This document shows, in pieces, positions 2 through 7,489 of a stretch of 64,000 nt of DNA. The DNA comes from Chryseobacterium aquifrigidense. Its GTDB lineage: Bacteria; Bacteroidota; Bacteroidia; Flavobacteriales; Weeksellaceae. The notes under the pieces were generated by a model. The model was not told the origin of the DNA. It saw only the letters and a list, made by a program, of their open reading frames with translations, and did not search any database. Within the stretch, counting starts at the first letter, position 1, and each line of letters starts with the position of its first letter. Location of the stretch: the NCBI RefSeq assembly GCF_006716485.1, contig NZ_VFPD01000001.1, forward strand, positions 1,935,314 to 1,999,313, read 5' to 3'. Made by a program: the position numbers and the translations under genes.

Positions 2-1048
2 AAACTTAATGATAATGAAAATCTTAAGCGCAATCCATACATGCAGATTCAGGCGCAGAGTGTGGTTTACAGGCTGAGCATTGACCCCAATGATAAAGAT
101 AAGATATCCAGGGTTCACTTAAGAAGATATGCTTCAAAAGAGAAAACAGATTTTATTGAAGAATCCGTTGATACTTCGGATGCCATTGTGATTCTGGCTG
201 CTAACGCTTTTGAAAATCCCAAAATTCTGCTGAACTCCAGATATACCGTTAACAATGTTGAAAAAACGGCTGCTAACAGCAGTGATCAGGTAGGAAGAAA
301 CCTTATGGATCATATGGTAATGCTGACATGGGGACTTTTCCCTGAACCCGTTTATCCTTACAGAGGTCCAGGTTCTACTACAAACATTTCGTCTTTCCGT
401 GACGGAAATTTCAGAGGTGAATTTTCAGCATGGATTTCTCCGCTTGACAATTGGGGATGGGGATGGCCGGCATTTTCTCCGGGATCAGATGTTACCTATT
501 TTATCACAGAGGAGAATCTTTTTGGAGCAGAATTAAGAAAAGAACTTGCCAACAGGCTTTCAAAACAGGTATTATTCCATTTTGAGATTGAGCAGTTACC
601 TAATCCCAATAACAGGGTTACCATTAACGATCAATATCTGGATGTGCTTGGAATTCCGCGTCCTGTCATTCATTATGAACTGACAGAGTATGAAATGAAA
701 GCTATGGAGCAGGCAAAAGATGCGTCGGATCAAATGTTTGAAAGATTAAACATTAAGGATTTCACAAAATATACTGCAGAAGACAAAAACTCTGTGATAT
801 ACAATGGGAAAAGATATTCTTACAACGGAGCCGGCCACATCGTGGGAACTCACAGAATGGGTTCTAAAGCCGAAGATTCTGTAACCAACAGCTATTGCAA
901 AACCTGGGATCATCCGAATTTGTACGTCGTAGGCGCAGGAAATATGACCACGCTGGGAACTTCAAATCCTACTTTAACATTATCAGCATTCACGATCCGT
1001 TCTGTAGAATCTATCCTTGCTGATCTTGAAATTCAACTTAAAAAATAA
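2..1048 (+). CDS. GMC family oxidoreductase, C-terminal part (5' end outside window)
   Basis: FAD-dependent glucose-methanol-choline (GMC) oxidoreductase, C-terminal half. The frame is open from base 2, so the ATG at 41 is internal and the FAD-binding N-terminus lies left of the window. The last 80 residues carry the family signature: GAGHIVGTHRMG with the catalytic-type His (near base 835-865), then NLYVVGAGNMTTLGTSNPTLT, where the Asn of the SNPT segment is the usual partner. The substrate cannot be read from sequence. It ends 4 bases before the start of the ferritin-like gene, and that pairing suggests one oxidative pathway. It lacks the N-terminal Rossmann GxGxxG only because of the window edge. 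Confidence 0.88.
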   Translation, partial: KLNDNENLKRNPYMQIQAQSVVYRLSIDPNDKDKISRVHLRRYASKEKTDFIEESVDTSDAIVILAANAFENPKILLNSRYTVNNVEKTAANSSDQVGRNLMDHMVMLTWGLFPEPVYPYRGPGSTTNISSFRDGNFRGEFSAWISPLDNWGWGWPAFSPGSDVTYFITEENLFGAELRKELANRLSKQVLFHFEIEQLPNPNNRVTINDQYLDVLGIPRPVIHYELTEYEMKAMEQAKDASDQMFERLNIKDFTKYTAEDKNSVIYNGKRYSYNGAGHIVGTHRMGSKAEDSVTNSYCKTWDHPNLYVVGAGNMTTLGTSNPTLTLSAFTIRSVESILADLEIQLKK

Positions 1049-1052
1049 TAAC

Positions 1053-2507
1053 ATGAGACAAAGACTTATCAATAAAACAGCGCAACCGCAGGAAACCCTA
1101 TTAACCGCAGGAAGAATGGCAGCAAGAAGCGCCGTGGTTACAGAAGCCATTTCATTACCTTCTTTATTATTTGATTCAACATTGAGCAAAGAAGACTGGA
1201 TAGAAGGATTAAAACATCACAGCAAAACCCTTACTAATCTTTTATTGAATGATCAGATTGAGGACTTTAATGCCTATCTGGAAGCTCAATTCGGTTCTGT
1301 AGCTCCAGAAGTAAAAAAAGGAGTAACAGAAATTGATTACAAACCTGTTTTGCAGGACCTTTTGCAAACAGCAATCCTTATCGAACATTCTACCATTCCT
1401 CCTTACCTTACGGCTTTATACTCCATCAAGGATGGAGCCAATGCTCTGGCTTCGCAAATTATCAGAAGTGTGGCTGTAGAAGAAATGCTTCACCTGATTA
1501 TGGTTTGTAATGTTCTGAATGCCATCGATATTCAGCCTTCTGTCAACCAAAAGGAGAACTACCCTACTTATCCTATGAAATTACCAATGAATGTGGATTT
1601 CTATGTGGGTCTGGAAACATTTTCAAGCAACAGCATTGCCACATTTATAGCCATTGAAAGTCCAAGCAAACCTTTGGTAAAAGCTCCGAAATATGATTAC
1701 GAAACCGATTCTTCTTCATTATATTCTCAAAGAGCAGCAGTACAGGATAGCAACTTCTGGACTCTTGAAAATATGAAAGGTTTCATCATGGAAAATGTAC
1801 ACACAATTGGGGAGTATTATGATGTTTTATTCTTCTACATTGTTGTTTTTCAAATTATTGCTTATTACAAAGAGCATGGGAAACTTCCAACAAATTTTGA
1901 GGAATTAAATACCGGAGGAATTTTCACTGGAAACCCGTCAAAACAGATCCGCCCTGAGCAATATTATGGAAGTGGTGGAAAACTGCATTCTGTAGAAGCT
2001 TTAGCTGGAGTGATTGCTGTTTTCCAGGAAATTAAAGGCCAGGGGGAAGGTGCTGATGATTCTATTTTTGATGTGGACCCATCTCAGTTTGAAGAAGGAG
2101 TTGAACTGGCTCATTATTTCAGATTTAAAGAGGTTTTCCACGAGCACTTCTATCTGGGAGGAAACTATGAAAATTTCATGGATGAAAATGGAATGATGCC
2201 TGTAACAACGCCTCCTACAGGAAAAGATCTTCCGGTAGACTGGAATGAGGCCTATCCTATGAAACCCAACCCTAAAGTTGAAGATTACATCAAAAACAAA
2301 GAATTACACGCCCAGGGTGTTGAGTTCAATAAAACCTACAGACGTTTATTAGATGCTATACAAAGTGCTGTGGAAGGAAACCAGAGGGAACTGGAGAAAT
2401 CTATTATGTACATGTATGCTTTGAAAGAACAGGCTGTTAATCTGATGAAACAACCGTTGGATGCTCAAAATAATGCAGGTCCGACTTTCGAATACACTGA
2501 ATTATAA
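1053..2507 (+). CDS. Ferritin-like (VioB-type) domain protein
   Basis: About 484 residues. The start ATG at 1053 is preferred over 1017, because 1017 would overlap the upstream gene by 32 bases. Residues about 90-160 match the ferritin-like domain of VioB, the iminophenyl-pyruvate dimer synthase of violacein synthesis: QTAILIEHSTIPPY, then AVEEMLHLIMVCNVLNAI. The EH and E..H residues are spaced like di-iron or haem-iron ligands. A second metal-ligand-like cluster, HYFRFKEVFHEHF, lies near base 2115-2150. There is no signal peptide. It probably works with the preceding GMC oxidoreductase (4-base gap) and the following 507-residue protein. The reaction is unknown; this domain also occurs outside violacein clusters. 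Confidence 0.75.
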   Translation: MRQRLINKTAQPQETLLTAGRMAARSAVVTEAISLPSLLFDSTLSKEDWIEGLKHHSKTLTNLLLNDQIEDFNAYLEAQFGSVAPEVKKGVTEIDYKPVLQDLLQTAILIEHSTIPPYLTALYSIKDGANALASQIIRSVAVEEMLHLIMVCNVLNAIDIQPSVNQKENYPTYPMKLPMNVDFYVGLETFSSNSIATFIAIESPSKPLVKAPKYDYETDSSSLYSQRAAVQDSNFWTLENMKGFIMENVHTIGEYYDVLFFYIVVFQIIAYYKEHGKLPTNFEELNTGGIFTGNPSKQIRPEQYYGSGGKLHSVEALAGVIAVFQEIKGQGEGADDSIFDVDPSQFEEGVELAHYFRFKEVFHEHFYLGGNYENFMDENGMMPVTTPPTGKDLPVDWNEAYPMKPNPKVEDYIKNKELHAQGVEFNKTYRRLLDAIQSAVEGNQRELEKSIMYMYALKEQAVNLMKQPLDAQNNAGPTFEYTEL

Positions 2508-2525
2508 CCATAAAAACGATATATC

Positions 2526-4049
2526 ATGCTTAAAAGAAAAAAAGAGAGTCCGGAAGCGGGAGGAGAACAGTTATTCCGCAAAATGCCGGGTCAGAATGAA
2601 GTTAATCTGGCGCAAGTAATGGACGGATATTCAAAACTTCTTATCGATGATCCGGTAAGACCATTCAGAGAAGACAACCTGCAGGCCATTGAAAATAATG
2701 TAGATTATGGAATTCTGGCTGCGCTGGATGGTACATGGGTTAGTTATAATGTTAATTACAATGAAAATGTTGCCAGGCCATCATTAGCAAGCGGAGTACA
2801 TACTACTATCATGCCTTCACCCGGAACCAATTCAGGAACCATACCGGGGAAATTCGCTTTTGACAGTGAAGAATATATTGAGAAACTGACATTTTCCATC
2901 GTTCCGGGAGGAGTACGTAACCGTGGCGGTGCCAGTGAACTTTTCTGCGGGGCAGTTAAATACGAACAGAGCATTAAAAGTGTTAATGCAATACCAGGGC
3001 AGGATGCTCTGAAATACACACCCATCCACGAAGAAAACGGAATGTACCTGTGGCTGAGTGACGTCTATAATCATGCAGCGACAAACGAATCTATTAAGAG
3101 AGACCGTGGTATTCATGCCGTTTCGACAGAAGATGCCAAGTATGGATATACCGGTGAGTACAGAGATGAGCCTTTGCTAAGGATAACACCAGACGGAGAA
3201 GCTAATCCGAAATATGTCCTTCAAAGCCAGCTGCAACCGGGACAGCCTTATTACGAAATCATTCCTGCACAGGAAATAAAGCCTGGAGCAGGGCTTGATG
3301 GTCCTTATTTTATTCCGGACTACTCTATCTCCCGAAGCGGTGTTATTCCTCATGGAAGCACTATTACTTTGCTTGGAGATATCGTTCCTCAAAATAAAGA
3401 TAATACAACGTTCTATTTAATTGAAGGTTCTCCTCAGTTTCCTTATGGTAAAGAGGCGTGGGAGACCAATCATCTTTCAATTTCACGTACCATGGGAAAT
3501 GCAGGAGTAACTTCGAAAGAAATCATTGACCTTGATAAACCTGCGCCGGATTGGGTTCATGAAACTCTTGATGATAACAATGATCCGGGTTCAAATAAGA
3601 TTTATACCCAGAGAATATTGGCGGACGATTTATATCCTTATTCTGTACGGCCTGATCTGCGACTGAGAGATACCTTAAGAGGCCAGAAAGTCAGCAATTA
3701 TGTTCATGTGAAAATGTCTTCCAAAATGAAAACCGGAGCCCAGGGAGGAGTTTTGAATGTTCCTTTTGTAAACCGTTTCGTTCCGACTGTTGAAGTGGAT
3801 ATGGACATGTGGATTGAAACAGTAATTGAAGACGGAAAAGAAATTCTTCAGCTTCAATATGAACAAATCGTATTCTTTGAGTTTGATTTCGGGAACGATG
3901 GGGGAACAACAAGCTGGCCTCATATCCAGGTAAATACCCTTCGTAAAATACAGGATATTCCAGAGGACCAGAGGAAGGTAATTGAAGAGCAGTTCTTTAA
4001 TACCAGTGGAAATGGTGCAGCTTCAGGATGTCCTTATCATAAAGGATAA
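2526..4049 (+). CDS. Conserved protein of the GMC/ferritin cluster, possibly haem-binding beta-barrel
   Basis: 507 residues, no signal peptide and no membrane segment. I do not recognise it with certainty. Near residue 65 there is ILAALDGTWVSYNV, and near residue 165 IHEENGMYLWL. This spacing recalls nitrobindin/FABP-like barrels, which have a GTW motif and an LHxExG strand, but the match is weak and the protein is much longer than those. The C-terminus is Cys-containing (SGCPYHKG). It is the last gene of the three-gene set, with an 18-base gap from the ferritin-like gene, and is followed by a strong terminator. A role in the same oxidation pathway is inferred from position only. Confidence 0.5.
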   Translation: MLKRKKESPEAGGEQLFRKMPGQNEVNLAQVMDGYSKLLIDDPVRPFREDNLQAIENNVDYGILAALDGTWVSYNVNYNENVARPSLASGVHTTIMPSPGTNSGTIPGKFAFDSEEYIEKLTFSIVPGGVRNRGGASELFCGAVKYEQSIKSVNAIPGQDALKYTPIHEENGMYLWLSDVYNHAATNESIKRDRGIHAVSTEDAKYGYTGEYRDEPLLRITPDGEANPKYVLQSQLQPGQPYYEIIPAQEIKPGAGLDGPYFIPDYSISRSGVIPHGSTITLLGDIVPQNKDNTTFYLIEGSPQFPYGKEAWETNHLSISRTMGNAGVTSKEIIDLDKPAPDWVHETLDDNNDPGSNKIYTQRILADDLYPYSVRPDLRLRDTLRGQKVSNYVHVKMSSKMKTGAQGGVLNVPFVNRFVPTVEVDMDMWIETVIEDGKEILQLQYEQIVFFEFDFGNDGGTTSWPHIQVNTLRKIQDIPEDQRKVIEEQFFNTSGNGAASGCPYHKG

Positions 4050-4115: not shown

Positions 4116-4754
4116 TTAAAGATTATCGTGGGTCTGTTCTACCATAAAAGATATTGCCTTTTTGATTTTTTCCCGTCCTTCAGGAGTATTGGTATCTATA
4201 CCACAGAAAAGACTGCCATTCAGAGAAGAAAACATATTCAGGTAGTATAGTCCGGAAACCATAATCGCCATAATAGAACGGTAAATATCCATTTTATCTT
4301 TAAAACGGGATTCCATCAATAATTTGAAGATATATTCTCCGTTTTCTTCCTGAGTGTCAATCAGTTTTTTTAATGATTTCCGAGGCTCAGAAATAGTCCA
4401 CAACAATAGTTTTTGAGCTTCTTTATTGGCGTATACATAATCAAACTGTGAAAGAAGCATATGCTCGATAAATTCTCTACCCCCATCTTCAAGATTCGGT
4501 TTCATCTTTTCCACTTCCTCGCTGGTTACTTTTACCCAGAAATCCTGTGTACGAACATATTCGTCCATGAGACCATCCATTCCTCCAAAATAAGTATAGA
4601 TCATTTTCTTATCTACCCCGGCAGTAGCAGCGATATCATTAATCTTCAACCCTGCATGTCCCTTCGTTTTCAGTATTTTTCCAACGGCATCCAAAAACTT
4701 TTTTTTGCTGCGTTCCTTATTTCTAATACTTCCTGATGCTGACTTTCTTTCCAT
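4116..4754 (-). CDS. TetR/AcrR family repressor 1 (paired with sRNA-like modules)
   Basis: About 212 residues from the internal ATG at 4754 (MERKSASGS), chosen because the paralogue at 5464-6093 begins at the same residue; the longest frame starts at 4775. The N-terminal TetR helix-turn-helix lies around residues 15-60 (LKINDIAATAGVDKKMIYTYFGG). The C-terminal ligand domain is of no recognised subtype. It is closely related to the protein encoded at 5464-6093, with the same ends (YYLNMF.SLNGS.FCGID). It is divergent from an inverted repeat at 4799-4820 and an sRNA-like transcription unit. I infer that it represses itself and the TTAGACAC modules. Confidence 0.9.
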   Translation of the reverse strand: MERKSASGSIRNKERSKKKFLDAVGKILKTKGHAGLKINDIAATAGVDKKMIYTYFGGMDGLMDEYVRTQDFWVKVTSEEVEKMKPNLEDGGREFIEHMLLSQFDYVYANKEAQKLLLWTISEPRKSLKKLIDTQEENGEYIFKLLMESRFKDKMDIYRSIMAIMVSGLYYLNMFSSLNGSLFCGIDTNTPEGREKIKKAISFMVEQTHDNL

Positions 4755-4798: not shown

Positions 4799-4820
4799 TT
4801 AGACACCAACTAGTGTCTAA
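4799..4820. promoter_or_regulatory. Inverted repeat 1 (candidate TetR operator)
   Basis: TTAGACAC-caacta-GTGTCTAA, perfect 8-bp arms with a 6-base spacer. It sits between the TetR start (4754) and the TATATTTG box at 4836-4843, 15 bases from that box. The other three modules have a 5-base distance. The upstream sequence AAATTTTTTTATCATTTTAGACAC is shared with the other copies. Confidence 0.8.
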
Positions 4821-4835
4821 TTTAAACTATTTGTA

Positions 4836-4843
4836 TATATTTG
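4836..4843 (+). promoter_or_regulatory. -7 promoter box (TATATTTG) of sRNA module 1
   Basis: Exact match to the Bacteroidota TAnnTTTG -7 element, followed by CACAAACTAAAACCAT, which is shared with the other modules. Transcription would start near 4848-4851. No clear -33 TTTG is present, because the operator occupies that area. Confidence 0.7.
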
Positions 4844-4848
4844 CACAA

Positions 4849-5007
4849 ACTAAAACCATTATATATATAAAACACTATCGAAGTTGAAAATTTAAAAACT
4901 ATTCAGATTGTATCGTTAGTTCCCTCAGTTTAAAATATTTCGAACATCAACGACTGAGGTAAAAACACAACCAACAGCATCATTTTCCATAATGATGCTG
5001 TTTTTTA
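4849..5007 (+). ncRNA. Candidate TetR-controlled small RNA 1
   Basis: About 160 nt between a TATATTTG promoter and an intrinsic terminator, with no credible ORF. It contains hairpin CCTCAGT (4924-4930) / ACTGAGG (4954-4960) with a 23-base loop, preceded by GTT, so that GTTCCC is shared with copies 2 and 3. After the hairpin comes the shared GGTAAAAACAC. The terminator follows directly: AACAGCATCATT (4974-4985) / AATGATGCTGTT (4992-5003). The same layout recurs three more times to 6652. Function is unknown; a trans-acting regulatory RNA is the simplest reading. Confidence 0.65.
4974..5007 (+). terminator. Intrinsic terminator of sRNA module 1
   Basis: A 12-bp perfect stem AACAGCATCATT / AATGATGCTGTT, loop ttccat, then TTTTATT. 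Copy 3 has a near-identical stem. Confidence 0.88.
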
Positions 5008-5232
5008 TTTACAATTTGATCTGATATTAAATAAAATAACTTTTTCGATAGAAATTTTTGATCAGTTTTTCTTTTGTACTTAAAAGTGCTATTATTTTTA
5101 AGACATCCGTTGCTCTATTTTACAGGCTTAACTAAGCAATACCACAAATTAATAGAAATTTTTACACTCAATATGAAAATTAATTCATTGAATTTCAGAA
5201 TATTAAATAAAATTAAGAAAAATTTTATCATT

Positions 5233-5254
5233 TTAAACACTTCACAGTGTCTTA
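5233..5254. promoter_or_regulatory. Inverted repeat 2 (candidate TetR operator)
   Basis: TTAAACAC-ttcaca-GTGTCTTA, the same 8-6-8 layout as copy 1 with two imperfect pairs. TATATTTG begins 5 bases further on, at 5260. Confidence 0.7.
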
Positions 5255-5259
5255 TTTTA

Positions 5260-5267
5260 TATATTTG
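5260..5267 (+). promoter_or_regulatory. -7 promoter box (TATATTTG) of sRNA module 2
   Basis: TATATTTG followed by TACAAACTAAAACCAACT, matching copy 1 just after the promoter. Expected start near 5273. Confidence 0.7.
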
Positions 5268-5272
5268 TACAA

Positions 5273-5433
5273 ACTAAAACCAACTATATATTTTAAAACA
5301 CTATTAGGTTGAAAAATAAGACAATCCAAATTGTATTATTGAGTTCCCTTCCTTTAAGACAATTCGAATAAGAAACAACTAAAGAAGTAACACAACTTAT
5401 AGACAGACCATTAGAACTCTAATGGTTTTGTTT
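5273..5433 (+). ncRNA. Candidate TetR-controlled small RNA 2
   Basis: About 160 nt, no credible ORF. It shares with copy 1 the start (AACTAAAACCA), AAAACACTAT..GGTTGAAAA, an ATTGTAT..GAGTTCCCT block and a later GTAACACAAC. The central stem is changed in sequence but can still form (CTTCCTTTA near 5347 with TAAAGAAG near 5382). The terminator is a different sequence from copies 1, 3 and 4. It ends about 30 bases before the stop of TetR gene 2, which comes in from the other strand. Confidence 0.6.
5407..5433 (+). terminator. Intrinsic terminator of sRNA module 2
   Basis: An 8-bp stem ACCATTAG / CTAATGGT with loop aact, then TTTGTTTTTTT. It replaces the GCATCATT stem found in the other three copies. 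Confidence 0.85.
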
Positions 5434-5463
5434 TTTTATGGAATTCAGGTTTCACACAAAAAG

Positions 5464-6093
5464 CTACAGGTTTTTGTAAGTATGATCCAGCATGAAAGAA
5501 ACGGCTTTCCTGATATTATCCCGCCCTTTAGGACTGTCAACATCGATCCCGCAGAAAATACTTCCATTAAGAGACGCAAACATATTCAGGTAATAAAGTC
5601 CTGAAACCATAATCGCCATAATGGAACGTGCATCTTCAGCATTATCTTTAAAATAGCTGTCCATCAAAAGTTTAAAAATATATTCTCCGTTTTTTTCCTG
5701 GGTTTCAGTAAGTCTCTTTAAAGATTTACGGGATTCTGATAACCGCCAGAGAAGTAGTTTTTGTGCTTCTTTACTGGAATAAACATACTCGAACTGAGAT
5801 AAAAACATATTTTCCATGAAGGATTTTCCTCCATCATCCAAGTGGGACTTTAATTCTTCAGTCTCTATTTTACTCCAATAATCCTGTGACCGGATATACT
5901 CATCTATTAAACCGTCTATTCCTCCAAAATAAGAATAAATCATTTTCTTATCCACCCCGGCTGTAGCAGCAATACTATTCACTTTCAAGGCAGTATATCC
6001 TTTTGTTCTCAGTATTTTTCCAACTGCATCCAAAAATTTTTTTTTACTGCGTTCTTTGTTCCGGATACTTCCTGCTGCCGACTTTCTTTCCAT
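5464..6093 (-). CDS. TetR/AcrR family repressor 2 (paralogue of 4116-4754)
   Basis: About 209 residues from the ATG at 6093 (MERKSAAGSIRNKERSKKKF), a block almost identical to repressor 1. The longest frame starts at 6111. The N-terminal TetR helix-turn-helix (LKVNSIAATAGVDKKMIYSYFGG) and the whole C-terminal domain align with repressor 1. One four-residue stretch of repressor 1 (EVEKMKPN..) is shortened here. It is divergent from inverted repeat 3 and sRNA module 3, exactly as repressor 1 is from module 1. The gene and two following modules look like one half of a tandem duplication. Confidence 0.9.
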   Translation of the reverse strand: MERKSAAGSIRNKERSKKKFLDAVGKILRTKGYTALKVNSIAATAGVDKKMIYSYFGGIDGLIDEYIRSQDYWSKIETEELKSHLDDGGKSFMENMFLSQFEYVYSSKEAQKLLLWRLSESRKSLKRLTETQEKNGEYIFKLLMDSYFKDNAEDARSIMAIMVSGLYYLNMFASLNGSIFCGIDVDSPKGRDNIRKAVSFMLDHTYKNL

Positions 6094-6135
6094 GGTACAC
6101 TTTTCAATCATACAAGTTTATGAAATTTTTTTCAT

Positions 6136-6159
6136 TTTAGACACTTTTTAGTGTCTAAA
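6136..6159. promoter_or_regulatory. Inverted repeat 3 (candidate TetR operator)
   Basis: TTTAGACAC-ttttta-GTGTCTAAA, perfect 9-bp arms and the most symmetrical of the four. It lies between the TetR 2 start (6093) and TATATTTG at 6164. Confidence 0.8.
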
Positions 6160-6163
6160 TTTA

Positions 6164-6171
6164 TATATTTG
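6164..6171 (+). promoter_or_regulatory. -7 promoter box (TATATTTG) of sRNA module 3
   Basis: TATATTTG, 5 bases after the 8-bp core arm of repeat 3, followed by CATCAACTAATAACCATTTT, which is shared with copy 4. Confidence 0.7.
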
Positions 6172-6176
6172 CATCA

Positions 6177-6325
6177 ACTAATAACCATTTTTACTTAAAC
6201 AGACAATCTGAGTTGTGAGGTTGAGAGAGATTAGATTGCACCGTTAGTTCCCTCAGTATCAATAGTACTGAGGTAAAACATTACAGCGGCAGCATCATTA
6301 CACAAATTAATGATGCTGCTTTTAT
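6177..6325 (+). ncRNA. Candidate TetR-controlled small RNA 3
   Basis: About 148 nt, no credible ORF. The block GATTGCACCGTTAGTTCCCT parallels GATTGTATCGTTAGTTCCCT of copy 1. The hairpin CCTCAGTA (6251-6258) / TACTGAGG (6266-6273) has only a 7-base loop, against 23 in copy 1. This conserves the stem while the loop changes, which favours selection on RNA structure. A GCAGCATCATTA terminator follows. Confidence 0.65.
6289..6325 (+). terminator. Intrinsic terminator of sRNA module 3
   Basis: A 12-bp stem GCAGCATCATTA / TAATGATGCTGC (6289-6300 with 6308-6319), then TTTTATT. Confidence 0.85.
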
Positions 6326-6483
6326 TAATGACAATATTTTTAAGAGGTTACGCCATCTTATTTCAGTTTTTGACTGGTTTTAATCTACTTTTATAAATTT
6401 TCACTTTCATAGAACGCCTTATAATAAAGGGTTTTCGTTAGATTTCAAATGACTGATAAAATAATTTTCATTTTTTTTAAATT

Positions 6484-6505
6484 TTAGACACTTCGCAGTG
6501 TCTTA
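6484..6505. promoter_or_regulatory. Inverted repeat 4 (candidate TetR operator)
   Basis: TTAGACAC-ttcgca-GTGTCTTA, one imperfect pair in 8-bp arms. TATATTTG starts 5 bases later. Confidence 0.75.
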
Positions 6506-6510
6506 TTTTG

Positions 6511-6518
6511 TATATTTG
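6511..6518 (+). promoter_or_regulatory. -7 promoter box (TATATTTG) of sRNA module 4
   Basis: TATATTTG followed by CTCCAAACTAATAACCATTT, as in copy 3. Confidence 0.7.
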
Positions 6519-6523
6519 CTCCA

Positions 6524-6652
6524 AACTAATAACCATTTTATATAGAAACACAATGTAATTTGGAAAAATTAAAAGTTTCGAACAAAAAGCAACTAAGGTA
6601 AAAACACTAAATGCAGCAGCGTCATAAATTCTCTAATGATGCTGTTTTCATT
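6524..6652 (+). ncRNA. Candidate TetR-controlled small RNA 4 (shortened copy)
   Basis: About 128 nt. It keeps the operator, promoter, start sequence, the TTTCGAACA segment seen in the loop of copy 1, and ACTAAGGTAAAAACAC. It lacks the GTTCCCTCAGT half of the central hairpin. The terminator is weaker: CAGCGTCAT (6617-6625) / ATGATGCTG (6636-6644), with one G-T pair and a short T-tract. It may be decaying or specialised. Confidence 0.5.
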
Positions 6653-6730
6653 TAGTATGACTTATTTTTATTTTACTCTGCAGAAAATTGTATATACCGG
6701 GAATTCGGTATGAGAATAGTTGATATGAAG

Positions 6731-6764
6731 AGAGACTGTCCCCGGACAGTCTCTTATTTTTTTA
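6731..6764. terminator. Strong hairpin between sRNA module 4 and pgl
   Basis: A 10-bp perfect stem AGAGACTGTC / GACAGTCTCT with loop cccg, then TATTTTTTT on the plus strand. It would stop read-through from the sRNA region and may also end the gnd-zwf-pgl message, although the minus-strand T-tract is poor. Confidence 0.75.
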
Positions 6765-6778
6765 ATATTGAAAATCTA

Positions 6779-7489
6779 TTAACCTCTGGCTTTTTCGTCT
6801 GTAAAAAACTGAAATCCGTCCTTCTTCTCAATAAGTTGCATTGGATATAGTGAAGGGTTATATTCACCATTCAAAACTTCGTTCAGCGCATGCTTTTTGG
6901 ATTCACCAAATGCAATAGCCAGAATATTATCTGCATTATTGATGATAGGTGCTGTTAATGTGATTCTGAACATTTCCTGAGACTTAAGATAATAGGCAGA
7001 CACCCATTTTTCCTTTTCATTTAAAACTTCTTCCCCTGGAAATAATGAGGCTGTATGACCGTCATCTCCCATTCCCAGCAGGATAAAATCAAAAATACCA
7101 TCATCACCCAGAACAGTTCTGATCTGCTGTTCATATGCTTTTGCATAATCTTCAGGAGTTACTCCTTCAGCATACATAGGAAAGATATGGTTTTGATCTA
7201 CCGGAACCTGATGAAGAAGCGCCTCATCCGTCATTCGGAAGTTGCTTTTATCATCGTTTAAAGGAACCCATCTTTCATCTACCCAAAAAAAGTAGACTTT
7301 ATTCCATTCTATCTGTTCTTTATATTCCGGTGTTGCCAGTAATTTGAAAATGGCTTTAGGAGAAGAACCTCCACTTAACGCCACCACAAAACGGTCATTT
7401 TTCTGAATAGATTTTTTTGAAAGGTCAACAAATACATCTGCTGCCTTTTTGTACAGTTTTTCCAGATCGTCAAATACTGTAATATTCAT
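6779..7489 (-). CDS. pgl: 6-phosphogluconolactonase
   Basis: 236 residues, the usual length of DevB/Pgl proteins, cytoplasmic. It hydrolyses 6-phosphogluconolactone to 6-phosphogluconate, the second step of the oxidative pentose phosphate pathway. Family features are the phosphate-binding segment VALSGGSSPKAIFKLL (about residues 36-51), FFWVDERWVP (about 68-77), ILLGMGDDGHTASLFPG (about 136-152), and the late AFGESKKHAL. It is the last gene of a minus-strand operon after gnd and zwf, 28 bases after the zwf stop. Confidence 0.95.
   Translation of the reverse strand: MNITVFDDLEKLYKKAADVFVDLSKKSIQKNDRFVVALSGGSSPKAIFKLLATPEYKEQIEWNKVYFFWVDERWVPLNDDKSNFRMTDEALLHQVPVDQNHIFPMYAEGVTPEDYAKAYEQQIRTVLGDDGIFDFILLGMGDDGHTASLFPGEEVLNEKEKWVSAYYLKSQEMFRITLTAPIINNADNILAIAFGESKKHALNEVLNGEYNPSLYPMQLIEKKDGFQFFTDEKARG

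Follow-up and report, generated by a model that had tools for sequence, protein, structure and literature searches.

The array described here lies in a 64,000-nucleotide (nt) stretch of the Chryseobacterium aquifrigidense genome (contig NZ_VFPD01000001.1, positions 1,935,314 to 1,999,313; hereafter the window) and consists, at window positions 4799-6652, of four plus-strand modules, each composed of a 22-base-pair (bp) palindromic operator, a TATATTTG box, a body of about 130-160 nt in which no open reading frame (ORF) is conserved, and a terminator. It is bounded by the TetR gene tetR1 (4116-4754, minus strand) on one side and by a 6-phosphogluconolactonase gene (pgl; 6779-7489, minus strand) on the other, and tetR1 and a second TetR gene, tetR2, are directly divergent from modules 1 and 3, respectively. 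A first-pass annotation had described four such modules of inverted repeat, box, ORF-less stretch and terminator, two of them divergent from paralogous TetR genes, and every one of these parts could be located. From our point of view, the locus probably represents a dedicated repressor that governs a multicopy family of small RNAs (sRNAs) derived from the repressor's former target gene. The features are as follows, with the evidence for each in brackets.

4116-4754, minus strand: tetR1, TetR/AcrR-family repressor of 212 amino acids with the recognition helix VDKKMIYTYF (PF00440, 1.5e-7; AlphaFold model)
4799-4820, no strand: operator 1, TTAGACACCAACTAGTGTCTAA, between tetR1 and RNA 1 (palindrome, genome operator search)
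4836-4843, plus strand: -7 promoter box of RNA 1, TATATTTG (consensus of PMC9723704; identity 0.99 across 18 species)
4848-5007, plus strand: RNA 1 (M1), predicted noncoding, with the stem CCTCAGT/ACTGAGG and a terminator at 4974-5007 (fold z -4.5; model 143.5 bits; covariation)
5233-5254, no strand: operator 2, TTAAACACTTCACAGTGTCTTA (genome operator search)
5260-5267, plus strand: -7 promoter box of RNA 2, TATATTTG (box match)
5272-5437, plus strand: RNA 2 (M2), without ATG, stopping about 27 nt before the tetR2 stop codon (covariance model, relic alignment, frame comparison)
5464-6093, minus strand: tetR2, paralogue of tetR1 with 72% identity (PF00440, 6.4e-8)
6137-6158, no strand: operator 3, TTAGACACTTTTTAGTGTCTAA, between tetR2 and RNA 3, identity 0.99 in 18 species (genome operator search)
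6164-6171, plus strand: -7 promoter box of RNA 3, TATATTTG (box match)
6176-6325, plus strand: RNA 3 (M3), predicted noncoding, with the strong stem CCTCAGTA/TACTGAGG and a terminator (fold z -4.9; 105 bits)
6484-6505, no strand: operator 4, TTAGACACTTCGCAGTGTCTTA (genome operator search)
6511-6518, plus strand: -7 promoter box of RNA 4, TATATTTG (box match)
6523-6652, plus strand: RNA 4 (M4), the shortest form (106 bits; selection comparison)

All four bodies begin with AACTAA-AACCA and end in a hairpin followed by a T-run terminator, and the recurrent start reported by the first-pass annotation therefore stands. The other parts that it listed as recurring are less general, as the GTTCCC block is confined to modules 1-3, the central stem is lacking from module 4, weak in module 2 and clear only in the remaining two, and GGTAAAAACAC is exact only in modules 1 and 4 (changed to GAAGTAACAC in 2 and to GGTAAAACAT in 3). 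RNA 4, which has neither the GTTCCC arm nor the central stem, retains TTTCGAACA..ACTAAGGTAAAAACAC and the terminator.

Flavobacterial sigmaA promoters carry a -7 box of the type TAnnTTTG at -12 to -5 (PMC9723704). Since TATATTTG fits this box, transcription is predicted to start at about 4848, 5272, 6176 and 6523, in agreement to a base or so with the starts given earlier. Operator and box are 15 bp apart in module 1 and 5 bp apart in the other three. When at most one mismatch is permitted, the four module sites are the only operators in the 5.13-megabase genome; with up to two mismatches, many weak matches appear genome-wide. On the opposite strand the operator lies about 20 bp ahead of the TAAACTTG box of tetR, which makes autorepression of tetR through the operator likely, and among TetR relatives the palindrome is found 60-70 bp before the tetR start codon.

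The two TetR proteins reach PF00440 scores of 31.5 and 32.7 bits (gathering threshold 24), and the AlphaFold model of TetR1 (pLDDT, the model's own confidence measure, 82.5) shows the all-alpha TetR fold of nine to ten helices and matches TetR proteins of the PDB at a TM score of about 0.5-0.7. These neighbours are of low identity, and several are fatty-acid or multidrug regulators, which does not fix the ligand. As the recognition helices of tetR1 and tetR2 differ at one residue, they are expected to share operators. Across Bacteroidota, TetR relatives with the helix VDKKMIY are associated with ACACTN4AGTGT-type sites and those with LDKKLIY with CACCN4GGTG-type sites, apart from a few relatives for which no site was found (e.g., L131 and L134); this co-variation of helix and half-site in loci L131-L144 would represent a ready-made specificity code. 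The genome's third TetR is distant (47%), resides in another context and has no operator. A core TetR paralogue with the helix FDKKLIY lies between an 8-amino-7-oxononanoate synthase-type aminotransferase gene and a dnaX-like gene (L086:2450-3082 and L145-L169), an arrangement that the window genome shares with many Chryseobacterium species; these copies, located behind another gene, have no operator of their own. Among the named genomes, all of them Chryseobacterium, the nearest to the window as judged by TetR1 is C. indologenes AA5. An origin from a mobile element was considered and rejected, as this TetR is absent from phage and viral contigs and plasmid relatives are at most 41% identical.

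A covariance model of the RNA recovered exactly the four copies in the window genome (E 1e-17 to 5e-12; next match E 4), with no copy away from the locus, and identified the RNA in 30 Chryseobacterium genomes, so that the repeats, for which the first-pass annotation had proposed such a search, are not duplications of one strain. Outside the genus there is a single match (L204), which lies across the end and terminator of a galE-like gene, has no TetR and was taken as chance, and the TetR loci of other genera (L131-L144) contain no such RNA. In 98 genomes of the genus the operator clusters beside a TetR gene and a TATATTTG-AACTAA start, except for scattered single chance matches. Altogether 141 distinct modules were extracted, a few entries being false (e.g., antisense matches or wrong terminators). 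A locus holds one to three TetRs and one to seven RNAs, extra modules exist without a tetR of their own, and the order tetR1-M1-M2-tetR2-M3-M4 is common to 18 species. In one species (L079:1950-5350), a 3.4-kilobase insert with an IS1595-like transposase gene (recognised by eye) and others separates RNA 1 from RNA 2, both modules being still recognisable.

The 18 species with this order were used to compare mean pairwise identity segment by segment. Identity amounts to 0.99-1.00 for the -7 box, 0.90-1.00 for the 5' word, 0.76-0.89 for the middle, 0.74-0.92 for the 3' word and 0.71-0.87 for the terminator, whereas it is 0.37-0.62 for the 60 nt after the terminator, and 0.62 and 0.55 for fourfold-degenerate sites in the two adjacent tetR genes. 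Since the RNA segments exceed both controls, the RNA bodies themselves are under purifying selection. At 60-120 nt downstream, identity is high for M2 (0.78), where the stretch reaches tetR2, and for M4 (0.82), where it reaches a further conserved element ahead of pgl. Compared with shuffled sequences, bodies 1 and 3 fold strongly (z -4.5 and -4.9) and bodies 2 and 4 more weakly (-2.5 and -2.3). Compensatory changes affect 14 of the 18 pairs of the central stem and terminator, a count reached in none of 500 shuffles; this control leaves relatedness in, and the structure came in part from the same sequences. Most copies keep the words AACTAA.AACCAT and ACTAAGGTAAAAACAC nearly unchanged, regardless of the middle. 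As the first-pass annotation had supposed, the RNA corresponds to no named family: a scan against Rfam, 6S, Flavo-1 and 6S-Flavo included, gave no match at the gathering threshold, and the best sub-threshold hits at a relaxed threshold were implausible.

The RNAs have no conserved reading frame. An ATG-initiated frame is lacking in 52 of 103 short RNAs, and M1, M2 and M3 of the 18 species have almost no ATG near the 5' end; indels break the TTG frames of closely related species, with 10 codons in L054 and L107 and 3 codons in many M1 copies, and most gaps that separate the long RNAs of such species have lengths not divisible by three. A TTG frame of 20-26 codons that resembles the former signal peptide (MKNKTIQIVLF...) is present in the M2 copies of about half of the 18 species. 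Such features lend some colour to the idea that the transcripts encode short peptides from TTG or GTG starts, which we nevertheless regard as the least probable of all explanations given the broken frames, the frequent lack of an ATG-initiated frame and the out-of-frame gaps. The unusual proposal of the first-pass annotation, namely a TetR repressor that serves nothing but its own gene and one small-RNA family, thus gains support from the single-locus operator, the match between helix and operator, the absence of a conserved frame, the lack of an Rfam match, the purifying selection on the RNAs and the recurrence in about 30 species.

Beyond that proposal, the long variants of the RNA point to its origin. 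At most loci with a single TetR, the predicted transcript measures 280-560 nt and its middle consists of broken frames of a secreted PF00144 serine hydrolase. The relic of L122 finds its best match among hydrolases in the Myroides hydrolase of L135 (87 residues, 41%, E 6e-17), in an alignment that spans an in-frame stop and in which SVTK has become SVGI, with loss of the SxxK lysine; two separate relic pieces are collinear with a Flavobacterium hydrolase. No functional SxxK motif was found in the long variants, in which the lysine is replaced, stops and frameshifts occur and the remaining gene is missing, so that we consider the long form to be a hydrolase relic and not an active PF00144 member. 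PF00144 was confirmed for the intact hydrolases beside TetR homologues, which in Flavobacterium (L137) and Terrimonas (L142) are directly divergent from the TetR gene and in Myroides (L135) lie inside a divergent operon, in each case with the operator between. Among the loci searched inside the RNA-bearing genus, no intact hydrolase was found beside the TetR.

The short RNAs appear to descend from this relic by trimming. The W-F-P-Q-F codons of L121 read TGGTTCCCTCAGTTT and match the GTTCCCTCAGTTT word of RNA 1, while the relic start region KKLKTIPIALF corresponds to GTTGAAAAA..AAGACAATTCAGATTGTATTATT of the RNA 2 class, TTG replacing the ATG start; in RNA 2 the former signal-peptide region, (TTG)AAAAATAAGACAATCCAAATTGTA, is still recognisable. 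Relic alignments of M1, M2 and M4 mostly lie at z 5-14 relative to dinucleotide shuffles. The long forms repeat CTCAGTTTA, and in several of them (L118-L124) the WFPQF word is tandemly duplicated (TTCCCTCAGTTTATTCTCTCAGTTTA). The RNA-linked TetRs form one clade (support 100/98) in which the TetRs of long RNAs branch close to the base, and protein-coding genes adjoin the closest TetRs outside this clade (Chishuiella, Myroides, Sphingobacterium, Pedobacter). As this tree was rooted by midpoint, the direction of change rests on the decay itself.

Taken together, these observations point to a probable ancestral unit in which a TetR gene was divergent from a PF00144 (class-C beta-lactamase-type) serine hydrolase gene, with one palindromic operator serving both. 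In one Chryseobacterium lineage, the hydrolase gene would have lost its start codon and about 300 codons and gained stops and frameshifts, but would have been kept as a noncoding RNA gene with its promoter, operator, first ~70 nt, WFPQF-codon word and 3' end with the terminator; this RNA gene would then have been trimmed to 110-170 nt and multiplied to the present one to three TetRs and one to seven RNAs per locus. What we infer beyond the anatomy of the modules, the restriction of the operator to the locus, the lack of a frame, the selection on the RNAs and the hydrolase origin of the long form, all of which are read from sequence, is transcription, TetR binding, a ligand and action in trans. 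A TetR dimer on the operator, which occupies the expected position of the -33 element of the RNA promoter and lies just upstream of the tetR -7 box, would repress the RNAs and its own gene, and an inducing ligand would free the TetR, whereupon the RNAs of the locus would all be transcribed at once and then terminated. Ligand-controlled repression and action in trans are most likely in our view, with base-pairing, probably via those conserved words that lie close to the 5' end and ahead of the terminator, as the first choice and protein binding as the second. RbpB is a protein of the RRM type. It has been described as a global RNA-binding protein of Bacteroides (PMC11697453). Because a Pfam model search for Hfq (PF17209) gave no match in the window genome, its single RRM_1 protein (G000:C1:1002783-1002989) is proposed as a possible partner of the RNAs.

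Several observations weigh against parts of this scheme. A search of the own genome for perfect or near-perfect complements to the conserved words revealed no enrichment (32 and 17 matches versus 64 and 10 for reversed controls), although pairing via short seeds may still occur, and predicted pairing of the RNAs with the tetR mRNAs or among themselves is not above shuffles. M3 aligns poorly with the 5' half of the relic and, except for the word, not above shuffles, and the 3' end of the hydrolase gene may be no more than a candidate origin of the 3' word. M1 is the least conserved module and has decayed in L061 and L073, which indicates that not every copy is essential. The one near-exact pair (L207) was rejected as a target and taken as coincidence, as it is in sense orientation inside an apparent coding region.

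The lack of outstanding complementary targets, the near-invariance of AACTAA.AACCAT and ACTAAGGTAAAAACAC around a variable middle and the repetition of CTCAGTTTA in long forms would also suit RNAs that bind a protein through invariant single-stranded words, as a sponge or in the manner of 6S or CsrB, with no base-pairing at all. We hold this to be possible but rather doubtful, as no Rfam family, 6S included, is matched. It is also conceivable that the modules are what is left of a pseudogenised hydrolase gene once regulated by TetR, that they were duplicated along with tetR and that they are still transcribed yet functionless, since the long variants are clearly broken genes, tandem duplication of a tetR-module unit would explain the arrays and some copies have decayed (L061, L073, L057). 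However, functionless remnants would hardly be conserved above tetR fourfold sites and spacers in 18 species or keep their stems by compensatory changes, modules lacking a tetR of their own occur, and the frame was apparently dead before the clade radiated, yet its ends persist; this makes the explanation unlikely. Still less probable, from our point of view, is that the arrays serve as decoys whose operators titrate TetR and so determine its threshold, the transcripts being by-products. Such decoys would be in line with the presence of up to seven operators at a locus and of none elsewhere in the genome, but selection extends beyond the operator to the 5' and 3' words and the terminator, and promoter box and spacing are retained at nearly every copy.

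We therefore retain the view of an sRNA family under its own repressor. Whether the full history holds, in which a coding gene turned once, and traceably via long intermediates, into a multicopy regulatory RNA family, the old TetR was kept as an RNA-only switch and the RNAs regulate in trans, perhaps the process of the lost hydrolase, is in our estimation an even matter.

Two observations concern the surroundings. Adjoining tetR1, at window 41-4049, are genes for a GMC oxidoreductase, a ferritin-like protein and an FMP-type haem peroxidase, and a similar peroxidase gene also adjoins solo TetR loci of other species. In the gap between RNA 4 and pgl, a further element (6678-6765) is kept in 17 of the 18 species; in it, the nearly invariant AGAATAGTTGATATGA links two hairpins, ACCGGGAATTCGGT, which varies in loop and arm, and AGAGACTGTCC..GGACAGTCTCT, behind which a T-run lies on the plus strand. 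No TAnnTTTG box was seen at this element, which may belong to the 3' end of pgl or represent another RNA.

The present analysis bears on the question where new bacterial sRNAs come from, as living intermediates seem to persist: intact hydrolases beside TetR in other genera and, within Chryseobacterium, relics of 280-560 nt, RNAs of 110-170 nt and arrays of up to seven. If true, the regulon of a TetR would apparently consist of the RNA and the regulator itself, in a phylum with a little-known sRNA biology and in a genome without detectable Hfq. In the literature searched, the coverage of which is incomplete, we found no TetR whose operator is confined to its own gene and to an adjoining RNA family that stems from a former enzyme target, and nothing clearly relevant on TetR-controlled flavobacterial sRNAs or on bacterial sRNAs from decayed genes.

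Among known systems, SgrR/SgrS, GcvA/GcvB and OxyR/OxyS of enterobacteria likewise have a regulator gene divergent from its sRNA; their regulators, however, are not TetR repressors, and the sRNAs are single-copy and without a hydrolase origin. The TetR-PF00144 units of Flavobacterium, Terrimonas and Myroides share the homologous TetR, the type and place of the operator and the divergent layout, but regulate an intact coding gene, the Chryseobacterium counterpart of which is a noncoding relic or RNA. LuxT and the LuxR/HapR-type regulators have large mRNA regulons, and the Qrr sRNAs need Hfq and target known mRNAs. In Vibrio, the TetR-family protein LuxT represses qrr1 (PMC8043402) and LuxR is in feedback with the Qrr RNAs (PMC2680268), so that in LuxT/Qrr1 and LuxR/HapR-Qrr1-5, too, a TetR-family protein controls an sRNA family of several homologous copies. 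Stand-alone flavobacterial sRNAs are also known from Flavobacterium psychrophilum (Rfp18 and others; PMC9723704), but these belong to a different genus, no TetR is mentioned in the main text of that paper and there is no sign of an operator-linked array, and the Flavo-1 and 6S-Flavo motifs of Rfam are RNA motifs of the same phylum, neither of which the window matches. Compared with the Qrr systems, to which Rfam scans revealed no sequence relation, the Chryseobacterium locus is thus distinguished by a regulator that adjoins its RNAs, an operator found nowhere else and a genome in which Hfq was not detected.

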